A DNA stretch of 49,189 nucleotides, taken from contig JAFVGI010000003.1 of assembly GCA_017475005.1 (NCBI GenBank), positions 1-49,189 on the forward strand, given 5' to 3'. The notes beneath the pieces are model-generated. The model did no database searches. It had not been told where the DNA came from and worked only from the letters and a program-made list of their open reading frames with translations. A program made the translations under genes and the position numbers. The DNA is from Prevotella sp. Lineage in GTDB: Bacteria > Bacteroidota > Bacteroidia > Bacteroidales > Bacteroidaceae. This document shows, piece by piece, positions 12,590 through 41,313 of this stretch; within the stretch, counting starts at the first letter, position 1; every line of letters starts with the position of its first letter.

Positions 12590-12809
12590 CCCTATCGTAC
12601 ACCTATCGTACACCTATCGTGCATCTATCGTGCATCTATCGTGCATCTATCGTGCATCTATCGTGCACCTATCGTGCATCTATCGTGCATCTATCGTGCA
12701 TCTACGTTACATCTACGTTACATCTACGTTGCATCTACGTTACATCTACGTTACATCTACGTTACATCTACGTTACATCTACGTTACATCTACGTTGCAT
12801 CTACGTTGC
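12590..12809 (+). repeat. Array of twenty 11-bp tandem repeats (two sequence blocks)
   Basis: Exactly 220 bases, 20 units of 11 bp. The first ten units are variants of ATCTATCGTGC or ACCTATCGTRC; the last ten are ATCTACGTTAC or ATCTACGTTGC. The switch from TATCGT to TACGTT occurs once, at about 12700, as if one block was replaced and then amplified. All three forward frames are open, but only because of the repeat (11-residue period), so this is not taken as a gene. It lies about 40 bp upstream of the promoter of the GH25 gene. Confidence 0.95.
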
Positions 12810-38549: not shown

Positions 38550-40511
38550 TTAAATTACTTCAAAAACATATCCGAAGCCTTGGCGACTGACGATGTTTTG
38601 TGCGTAAGGGCCGAGTTTCTTGCGGAGACGCGTGATGTTTACGTTTACCGTTCGATCTGTTACTATGACACCTGTCCAGATGGTGTCCATGAGTTGCTGG
38701 CGGGAGAATACTTGACCCTGGTTTGCAAGGAGCAAATGAAGCAGGGCGTACTCAGTGCGGGTTAGGCTGACTGTTGTGCCGTCGATGGAGACAGTCTTGT
38801 GGTCGAGGTTCATCTGCAAACCGCGATATACAAGCAAATGCTTACCAAGACGTGCCTCAACAATATTCATAACATAGTCACCCAATTCTTCGCAGGCGGA
38901 AATGAGGTCGCCATAGAGTGCACCGAGGGAATAGCTGTAATGTAGGGCATTGAGGTCACTTACTATTTCTGCTTTCAGTGCGTCGCGCATGGTATTGATG
39001 TCACGTTCTATTTCAAGTGAGGGAGCGATGGTGAGGTCTTCGCGTCTGCCGCTAATAACAACCAACATCTGTGTAAGAGCCTCGTTTACCAGCTGAAATA
39101 TGTCGTGCAGATTAGCATATTGCTTGGAAGTGAAATCCTCGTGATTGTTGCGCAGGTGCTGAATGGTACGGGCAGCTTTGAAACATACATCGCCAATGGA
39201 TTCCAATTCACCAATCTGACGGAGTATTATACGAATTTTCTCTTTCGTATCGTCCGACAAGTGCTCATTGCCCACCTGTCCAAGATATTCGGCAATTTCT
39301 ATTTCCATGTTATCGGAAATGGTTTCGTACTTGCTGATACGTTCATACTGACGCTCAAATTCCTTCTTGTCCTTTTCGTCGATGAGAGCACGTGTCATGC
39401 CGAACATACGCTGTATGCGCTCAGCAAAGTGTACGATTTCTTTCTGTGCCTGAAACACAGCTATTTCCGGCGTCTGCATCACACCGTCGTTAATGAAGTG
39501 CAGCGTAGCAGGCTGTTTGGACTTTTCTGTACCATCGGGCAGCAGTCGGCATACAAGTCGTTCCATTTGAGGTATGAAGCCTATGAGCAGGGCGGTATTA
39601 AGCACGTTGAAACACGTGTGGAACATTGCCAGCATAATGGGAAACTTTGTCGTTTGTCCCGGCAATGCGGAATTGTAACCAACAATTTCACATACCATAT
39701 CGACAAATGGATAGAATACTGCAAGCACCCAGATAACACCGAAGACATTGAACAGCAAGTGAGCCAGCGCAGCCCTCCGTGCTGCTGTGCCAGCGCCAAG
39801 AGCAGCAAGGTTGGCAGTCGCAGTGGTACCGATGTTCTCACCCATGACCAGCGCAATACCCATATAGATAGGAAGCACCCCAGTGGAGCATAGCAGAATG
39901 GTGATGGCCATGACTGCCGCTGAAGACTGTACGATACATGTGATAATAGTGCCCGCAGTAAGAAAGGCTAGGATGGTAAGGTAGCTACTGGTGTCGAACG
40001 AAGCAAAAAAAGACATCACGTCAGCGTTATGCGCCAAGTCCATGTCGCGTCCCACATTGCTCAGCATCACAAGCGACCAGAACATAAACGCCAGTCCGAA
40101 GAGGAATTCGCCCGCCACGCTATGACGTTTCTTGTAAATAAGCACCATGCCAACAAGGAATGCAGGGAACACAACAGTCGTAAGATCAACGTTATAGCCC
40201 AGTGACATAATCCATGCTGTCAGTGTAGTGCCGATGTTTGCTCCCATGATGACAGAGATGGCTTGTGCCAGTGTCAACAGGCCGGCACTCACAAAGGAAA
40301 CCGTCATAACCGTCGTTGCTGATGATGACTGGACAGCACAGGTTACAATCATTCCTGTCAGCATGCCGCTGAATCGGTTGCCAGTCATACGTCCCAGAAT
40401 ATGTCTAAGACCCGGTCCCGCCATTTTCTGCAGTGAGTCGCTCATCGTCTTCATGCCGTAAATGAGCAGTGCCAGAGAACCAAGCAATCTGAATGTAATG
40501 TCAATTGTCAT
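38550..40511 (-). CDS. Na+/phosphate cotransporter fused to PhoU and an OmpR/PhoB-type DNA-binding domain
   Basis: A 653-residue protein with three parts in one continuous frame. Residues about 1-320 are a NptA/PNaS-type Na/Pi transporter with both QSS motifs (VQSSSATTVMT near 60-70 and IVQSSAAVMA in the second half). Residues about 350-560 are helical and PhoU-like (ISKYETISDNMEIEIAEYL, ELESIGDVCFKAARTIQ, ELGDYVMNIVEARLG). Residues 572-653 are a winged helix of the response-regulator C-terminal type: LTRTEYALLHLLLANQGQVF, SRQQLMDTIWTG, recognition helix VTDRTVNVNITRLRKKLG and the wing RQGFGYVFEV. Transporter-PhoU fusions are common, but the added DNA-binding domain is unusual. The ATG at 40511 follows the promoter at 40542-40573; upstream in-frame ATGs lie beyond it. 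Confidence 0.9.
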   Translation of the reverse strand: MTIDITFRLLGSLALLIYGMKTMSDSLQKMAGPGLRHILGRMTGNRFSGMLTGMIVTCAVQSSSATTVMTVSFVSAGLLTLAQAISVIMGANIGTTLTAWIMSLGYNVDLTTVVFPAFLVGMVLIYKKRHSVAGEFLFGLAFMFWSLVMLSNVGRDMDLAHNADVMSFFASFDTSSYLTILAFLTAGTIITCIVQSSAAVMAITILLCSTGVLPIYMGIALVMGENIGTTATANLAALGAGTAARRAALAHLLFNVFGVIWVLAVFYPFVDMVCEIVGYNSALPGQTTKFPIMLAMFHTCFNVLNTALLIGFIPQMERLVCRLLPDGTEKSKQPATLHFINDGVMQTPEIAVFQAQKEIVHFAERIQRMFGMTRALIDEKDKKEFERQYERISKYETISDNMEIEIAEYLGQVGNEHLSDDTKEKIRIILRQIGELESIGDVCFKAARTIQHLRNNHEDFTSKQYANLHDIFQLVNEALTQMLVVISGRREDLTIAPSLEIERDINTMRDALKAEIVSDLNALHYSYSLGALYGDLISACEELGDYVMNIVEARLGKHLLVYRGLQMNLDHKTVSIDGTTVSLTRTEYALLHLLLANQGQVFSRQQLMDTIWTGVIVTDRTVNVNITRLRKKLGPYAQNIVSRQGFGYVFEVI

Positions 40512-40541
40512 AATCTTGTCTGTTTTGCATTTTTCTGTGTG

Positions 40542-40573
40542 CAAAGGTACAAAATCTGAGACAAACAGGCAAA
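40542..40573 (-). promoter_or_regulatory. Bacteroidota-type promoter for the transporter fusion gene
   Basis: On the minus strand TTTG (40570-40573) and TACCTTTG (40542-40549) are 20 bp apart, giving a leader of about 25 bases to the ATG at 40511. This supports the shorter start. Confidence 0.75.
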
Positions 40574-40618
40574 TAATGTCGGTTACGATTTGGTTACAAT
40601 TCTCCACAAAACCATTTC

Positions 40619-40647
40619 GGGAGGACCCGCACATTGCGAATCCTCCC
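40619..40647. other. Inverted repeat upstream of the transporter promoter
   Basis: GGGAGGA and TCCTCCC flank CCCGCACATTGCGAA; GCA/TGC can extend a smaller inner stem. It lies 46 bp upstream of the -33 element. It may be part of termination of the thioredoxin gene or an operator; the sequence does not decide. Confidence 0.4.
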
Positions 40648-40689
40648 AAATTTATATTCCATAGTTTTGTTCTTTCTTTGACAAAAAAA

Positions 40690-40785: not shown

Positions 40786-41313
40786 TTACTGGAACAGCTC
40801 GTCGAGGTATTTGTAGAACGCTGGGTCTTCGCCTATGACAATCTTCTCGATGCGGCCTTTGGGGTCGATGATAATCTTTGTCGGGTAGCCCTGTATGCCA
40901 TAGTCGGCTGTCAGACGAGTGCCCTTGGGGTTATAGACGTGTTTCCAGGGCATGTCGTAGGCTGCTACGGCTGCCTTCCACTTGTCAACGGGGTCGTTGC
41001 AGTCGATGCCGATAATCTCAAACTTGCCGCTGTACTTCTCGTAGTATCTCTTCATCTCGGGAATGCCCTTGATTCACCACGGGCACCATGAGCCCCAGAA
41101 GTCGAGCACCACATACGTGCCTCGGAATGACGACAGCGTCAGCGGCATACCATAGATGTCGTTGAGCGTAAAGTCCGGCGCCATCATGGCATCCGTATCG
41201 TCCTGCTCCACACGTGTAGTGGTCTCAGAGTTATTTACAGCGGCATTGTTGTGCCTGGCAACGCATGCGCAAACAACAGCAGCACACACAAGGGTAAAAA
41301 GAATCTTCTTCAT
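40786..41313 (-). CDS. TlpA/ResA-like thioredoxin with in-frame TGA at the second active-site Cys position
   Basis: The minus strand encodes a lipoprotein-like signal (LVCAAVVCAC), a short linker, then an AhpC/TSA-TlpA thioredoxin fold: APDFTLNDIYG, YVVLDFWGSWCPW, a TGA codon (41074-41076), and then IKGIPEMKRYYEKYSGKFE, GYPTKIIIDPKG with the cis-Pro, ending DELFQ. The two halves are in the same frame and together make 175 residues, normal for the family. Relatives have W-C-P-W-C at this place, so TGA replaces the second catalytic cysteine (position 80). Either it is read as selenocysteine (C-x-x-U), or the gene is inactivated, or two pieces are made with restart at the ATG at 41055. No convincing bacterial SECIS hairpin was seen by eye. 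Confidence 0.7.

Follow-up and report, generated by a model that had tools for sequence, protein, structure and literature searches.

A Prevotella Na/Pi transporter joined to a PhoU-like domain and a PhoB-type winged helix: a predicted regulator of its own gene

The window, i.e. the whole stretch of 49,189 nucleotides that was analysed (contig JAFVGI010000003.1 of Prevotella sp. assembly GCA_017475005.1, a draft genome that is 81% complete in 72 contigs), carries on its minus strand a gene whose single intact frame spans a sodium/phosphate (Na/Pi) transporter, a PhoU-like domain and a winged helix of the PhoB type but no receiver domain. We refer to this gene and its product as the fusion. A Pho-type box and a promoter element precede it, and the features are as follows (bp, base pairs).

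38550..40511, minus strand: fusion gene, 653 amino acids plus stop, Na/Pi transporter-PhoU-PhoB-type winged helix (profile matches, full-length relatives)
39537..40511, minus strand: transporter part, residues 1-325, two Na_Pi_cotrans repeats (PF02690, TIGR00704)
38844..39479, minus strand: PhoU-like six-helix domain, residues 345-556
38559..38843, minus strand: PhoB-type winged helix, residues 557-651 (NF053854 positions 130-225, secondary structure, 1gxp fold match)
38595..38657, minus strand: predicted recognition helix, residues 619-639 (DSSP on the model)
40582..40599, minus strand: Pho-type box TTGTAACCAAATCGTAAC, two half-sites, 11-bp period, 13 of 14 consensus bases
40542..40549, minus strand: TACCTTTG, Bacteroidetes-type -7 promoter element, 32 bp downstream of the box

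Domains of the fusion protein

In profile searches the transporter part scored 182.9 bits against PF02690 (cut-off 29.1) in two stretches, 215.3 against TIGR00704 (cut-off 210.1) and 186.1 against NF037997 (cut-off 50). A QSS motif in each repeat is the mark of the NptA/SLC34 family, and here the motif occurs once per repeat (Q61 S62 S63 and Q195 S196 S197) and is invariant in 18 fused proteins; by sequence, zebrafish SLC34A2 is the closest relative with a solved structure. Judged by its sequence, this part is an SLC34/NptA-type Na/Pi transporter, and sodium-dependent phosphate transport is predicted. The middle domain has the six helices of the PhoU fold, although its Pfam PhoU score (20.4 bits) lies below the gathering score of 23.5; one unfused relative encoded in an operon passes that profile with 39.5 bits.

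The C-terminal domain matches positions 130-225 of NF053854, the PhoB family of Bacteroidetes, and the fold of the PhoB-Pho box complex 1gxp. The VIA-align match list consists of PhoU and winged-helix rows and barely tests the transporter part. Against full-length NF053854 the fusion protein scored 111 bits, below the family cut-off of 270, and a Response_reg profile search of it gave no match. In the structural model the last PhoU helix ends at residue 555 and the first strand of the winged helix begins at 559, four residues apart, and the end of this PhoU helix is conserved, with E552, R554, L555 and G556 invariant in the 18 fused proteins. Within the recognition helix V624, R628 and R630 are invariant and R620 and T621 are present in at least 90% of the 18 relatives; the fusion positions matching the PhoB residues that touch DNA are taken here as likely DNA-contact positions. 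A preliminary description of this locus had claimed one uninterrupted transporter-PhoU-winged-helix frame with a complete PhoB-type C-terminus and no receiver, and all of this is borne out: the frame is conserved at full length in relatives, profile, secondary structure and fold match agree on the winged helix, and the receiver profile finds nothing.

A Pho-type box at the fusion promoter

The box was scored against a 14-base consensus (TTGTAAC-N4-TTGTAAC) in 102 upstream regions, which fell to 79 without near-copies and to 69 without ten regions from a genus labelled g24. At least 11 of the 14 bases were found in 64 of these 69 fusion promoters, 63 with TAnnTTTG, which we take to be the Bacteroidetes -7 element, 31-34 bp downstream, and in 26 of 445 other genes from 80 loci. 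With the threshold raised to at least 12 bases, the box was present in 58 of the 69 fusion promoters compared with 12 of the 445 other genes; at this threshold periods of 9, 10, 12 and 13 bp were found in only 4, 1, 2 and 0 of the 69. Mononucleotide shuffles gave the box in none of 345 cases, and the two unfused paralogues in the source genome have best boxes of 9 and 10 of 14. In the g24 promoters a box-like repeat occurs in the opposite orientation in nine of the ten analysed, and one half-site in the tenth. From these sequences, the C-terminal domain is predicted to bind the 11-bp tandem Pho box at its own promoter.

We then ran a strict box-plus-promoter pattern, with a gap of 30-36 bp allowed, on 34 chosen genomes without the fusion and on the 18 genomes with it. 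Among the 34, strict sites occurred in 18 of the 21 genomes bearing PhoB and in none of the 13 lacking it. The 22 strict sites precede Pit transporters (7), phoB (6), Na/Pi transporters (5), phosphate-selective porins (2), a TerC gene (1) and no clear gene (1), and because they mostly precede phoB, phosphate transporters and porins, the strict pattern behaves as a Pho box of the genus. The gap between box and -7 element was 32 bp at 20 of the 22 sites in these PhoB-bearing relatives and 32 or 33 bp at 12 fusion-gene sites.

The 18 fusion genomes contained 15 strict sites in 14 genomes, and 12 of them lie at the fusion gene; of the remaining three, one precedes a broken Na/Pi remnant (G071), one is at the end of a contig (G175) and one falls inside a frame (G119). 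The preliminary description had named both the region 40540-40660 and a set of phosphate genes as candidate targets. The conserved box lies inside that region, and the strict pattern, with 12 of its 15 sites there, indicates the own promoter rather than a wider set of phosphate genes as the main target. A wider regulon in the source genome was also rejected, as boxes with up to two mismatches were at background (27 hits versus 25 for the reversed control). At the G071 site (L253, G071:C77) the strict box lies ahead of a broken Na/Pi gene adjoining a phoB-like fragment, which may be a decayed remnant or contamination.

Distribution, PhoB loss and origin

A full-length fusion without stops is present in at least 18 of 200 sampled genomes of the genus, the source genome included; matches in this sample were listed best first, and a diverged copy may escape the count. 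In a second collection, of which we used the best 80 loci of at least 591 stretches (at least 568 relatives), 74 of the 80 have a single fusion frame of 600-760 amino acids, L106 has a longer, open-ended frame, and L047, L092, L100, L109 and L111 are partial. The two collections share records and their counts are not additive. Titles of the 80 loci carry Prevotella, Prevotellaceae, Bacteroidaceae and other Bacteroidales labels, and some name strains (e.g. Xylanibacter ruminicola D31d). RUG, RGIG, RUI, reindeer or red deer tags, of which we assume RUG and RUI to mean rumen surveys, occur on 64 of the 80 titles, a count from which no habitat link is claimed. We sought a conserved neighbourhood around the gene in these loci and found that the neighbours mostly differ, with a few small groups sharing some.

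At 1e-40 or better, the fusion protein has matches in 27 of 301 genomes of the family. Open frames of at least 655 amino acids are present in 24 of the 27, spread over six genera; the frames of G261 and G349 are short, and the match of G327 covers the winged helix only. Searches of 295 genomes of the order at 1e-40 and of 296 genomes of the phylum at 1e-35 gave no match beyond the source genome. The fusion of genus g24 (L192-L203; 12 loci fetched, 6 put in trees) has a more divergent winged helix and groups elsewhere in both the transporter and winged-helix trees. It is perhaps a second, independent fusion.

PhoB scored above its curated cut-off in 109 of the 200 genus genomes, in 2 of the 18 with the fusion compared with 107 of the 182 without it (Fisher p 9.8e-5, uncorrected for relatedness). 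PhoR-like kinases (1e-50 or better) were surveyed in 40 chosen genomes and were found in 9 of 9 bearing PhoB, in 0 of 13 with neither PhoB nor the fusion, and in 2 of 18 with the fusion, the two that also have PhoB. Both proteins are therefore missing from 16 of the 18 fusion genomes, including the 99%-complete G117 (one contig) and G055, in agreement with the earlier proposal that the fusion replaces a PhoR-PhoB pair. PstB was found in 8 of the 40 genomes, 3 of the 18 with the fusion (below the curated score) and 5 of the 22 others.

Unfused relatives suggest how the fusion was assembled. The two paralogues in the source genome are 52-53% identical over residues 5-572 and 1-553. At least 23 of the 200 genomes of the genus have a complete phoB directly downstream of a related transporter gene, in the same orientation and separated from it by -15 to 230 bp. 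Of the 18 such loci fetched, 14 continue with a kinase of 297-319 amino acids; L121, L170 and L173 have no such kinase, and L172 was not gene-called. Three of the 14 kinases were profile-searched, and all three have HisKA and HATPase_c. These operon kinases (L164-L169, L171, L174-L180) compare with kinases of 451-521 amino acids beside phoB in most other fetched loci, and in the short-kinase operons the transporter may serve as the kinase's sensor.

The fusion has the layout of the whole transporter-PhoU protein followed by PhoB from about position 130, with the receiver dropped. In the winged-helix tree, 32 of the 33 fused rows outside g24 form a supported branch together with one operon PhoB, and this branch is nested in a supported branch with 10 further operon PhoBs. 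The most likely source of the fusion is a transporter-phoB(-short kinase) operon, through loss of the receiver. A single clade of all 39 fused rows was rejected by the transporter tree (4 changes; approximately unbiased test, p-AU 0.00023), and still so for 32 rows with g24 and L112 left out (p 0.00123), whereas the winged-helix trees were compatible with one fused clade (p-AU 0.208 and 0.282). The pattern of fused and unfused proteins may reflect either repeated fusion or repeated splitting, which the trees do not tell apart.

Two further features of the window lie outside this system. At 40786-41313 on the minus strand is a thioredoxin/AhpC-TSA-like gene, called as two open reading frames that form one frame with a single in-frame TGA, which replaces the second cysteine of the CxxC motif (WCPW-TGA-IKG). 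It is a candidate for either a selenocysteine redoxin or a nonsense change; searches of it found no SECIS family match and no hairpin better than in shuffles. At 12706-12789 (minus strand) the box search turned up several overlapping ATGTAACGTAG units with an 11-bp period, which look like a simple tandem repeat.

Proposed mechanism, alternatives and meaning

We consider it likely that the fusion is a one-protein phosphate homeostat, i.e. a self-regulating Na/Pi importer in which the output half of PhoB has been joined to a sensor-transporter. The preliminary description had likewise assigned import, sensing and the control of genes to a single polypeptide, a view supported by a winged helix of PhoB's own kind and by the transporter-phoB relatives. 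The transporter-PhoU part would sense either the flux of phosphate or its supply. Under phosphate shortage PhoU would release the winged helices; two fused proteins would then bind next to each other on the tandem box, some 32 bp upstream of the -7 element, and switch on the gene that encodes them. With ample phosphate, the winged helix would be held back and expression would fall. Two fused proteins would be needed because the box would hold two adjacent winged helices, and as there is no receiver, pairing or release would have to come from the transporter or PhoU part. PhoB and PhoR are gone from most fusion genomes, where the boxes that can be recognised shrink to the fusion gene's own promoter. 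With rather less assurance, we lean towards the wider view that here a transporter is the transcription factor of its own gene, that a whole pathway of sensor kinase, regulator and transporter has collapsed into it, probably more than once in Bacteroidales, and that the Pho regulon has been reduced to one promoter.

Several observations weigh against this reading. Five of the 69 fusion promoters have no good box, and the strict site is missing from 3 of the 21 PhoB-bearing genomes and from the fusion gene in 6 of the 18 fusion genomes; four of these six (G005, G037, G119, G151) have looser boxes of 11-13 of 14 bases, and a check of the other two (G001, G175) for such boxes found none. The pattern when reversed still produced 1 hit among the 18 genomes with the fusion and 4 among the 34 without it. 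In the source genome a perfect box (L212, G000:C58:70611) precedes a radical-SAM/UPF0004 gene, with no -7 element at the usual spacing, and as diverged sites may escape the strict pattern, a one-gene regulon is not proven. Both PhoB and a PhoR-like kinase are kept in G073 and G171. The loss of PhoB elsewhere may track phylogeny, and among the genomes with the fusion there are many drafts (74-99% complete). The placement of the domains in the model is unsure (predicted template modelling score, pTM, 0.49), and we infer the cytoplasmic location of the C-terminus from the role of PhoU and from the box, hydropathy having left the topology unsettled. Activation would follow by analogy with PhoB.

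The direction of control bears on the first alternative, in which the winged helix, bound to the same box, shuts off its own promoter under ample phosphate or an excess of transporter. The box does sit at the gene's own promoter, and these data do not show the direction directly; however, it lies upstream of the promoter core, and its gap to the -7 element (32/33 bp) is that of PhoB-bearing relatives, where PhoB is expected, from E. coli, to activate. As the spacing equals that of PhoB-type promoters, activation at low phosphate would be favoured, and we regard autorepression as unlikely. It is less likely still that the C-terminal domain works off DNA, as a leftover or a protein-contact module tuning transport, with the box used by another OmpR-type regulator. 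A membrane tether would hamper access to DNA and PhoB persists in two fusion genomes, but the likely DNA-contact positions are kept, the ratio of nonsynonymous to synonymous substitution rates (dN/dS) is low, strict sites at the fusion gene occur in 12 fusion genomes of which 10 have no PhoB, and the 13 genomes lacking both PhoB and the fusion have no strict site, though each has other PhoB-profile regulators.

Membrane-bound regulators are known to undergo regulated proteolysis, and the winged helix could be cut from the membrane under some condition and act as a soluble regulator; the four-residue junction leaves no long linker and the end of the last PhoU helix is conserved, so that this is improbable. 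Finally, a joining of two genes by sequencing error or misassembly, conceivable in that the analysed contig comes from a draft assembly, is refuted by the same junction in 17 further genus genomes and in 74 of the best 80 loci, named strains included. The preliminary description had named such an error, or loss of the DNA-contact positions, as grounds for giving up its claim; neither turned up, and the matching positions are kept in the 18 relatives.

The self-regulating importer that we favour shares the transporter repeats, QSS motifs and C-terminal PhoU with NptA-type transporters (SLC34 relatives); the unfused ones in this analysis end after PhoU, whereas the fusion carries a DNA-binding domain itself. 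In S. aureus the PhoU domain of NptA modulates PhoPR (PMC13170248), so that the PhoU domain of the fusion is a plausible phosphate reader. The S. aureus protein acts through a separate two-component system, unlike the fusion with its own putative output domain. With Bacteroidetes PhoB (NF053854) the fusion has in common the winged helix, the likely DNA-contact positions and the kind of box before the gene; PhoB has a receiver, whereas the fusion has none, and so no phosphorylation site, and is attached to a membrane transporter. By sequence the fusion thus falls outside the definition of PhoB and should work like its output half.

ToxR and CadC also tether an OmpR-type winged helix to the membrane without a phosphorelay. 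Their layout is an N-terminal winged helix, one membrane helix and a periplasmic sensor, and CadC needs a separate transporter as co-sensor; in the fusion the winged helix is C-terminal, a complete transporter serves as the tether, and the transporter and PhoU are the expected sensors. Transporter-histidine kinase fusions such as CbrA combine a transporter-like part with a signalling output, but that output is a kinase with a separate regulator rather than a DNA-binding domain. Searches of an open-access library, from which most subscription papers are absent, gave no title or opening of an abstract that describes a Na/Pi transporter joined to a DNA-binding domain, although one may still exist in print.

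To our knowledge, it is an open question in phosphate control by what route the state of the transporter and PhoU is passed on to PhoR and PhoB. With kinase and receiver gone and PhoU joined to a DNA-binding domain, the transporter-PhoU signal could be studied in one chain, accompanied by a candidate operator at a known place. The fusion would also show, in nature, how a signalling pathway of several genes contracts to a single one, with relatives at the operon stage still present, and may offer a compact design by which gut bacteria could be made to express genes in response to phosphate.
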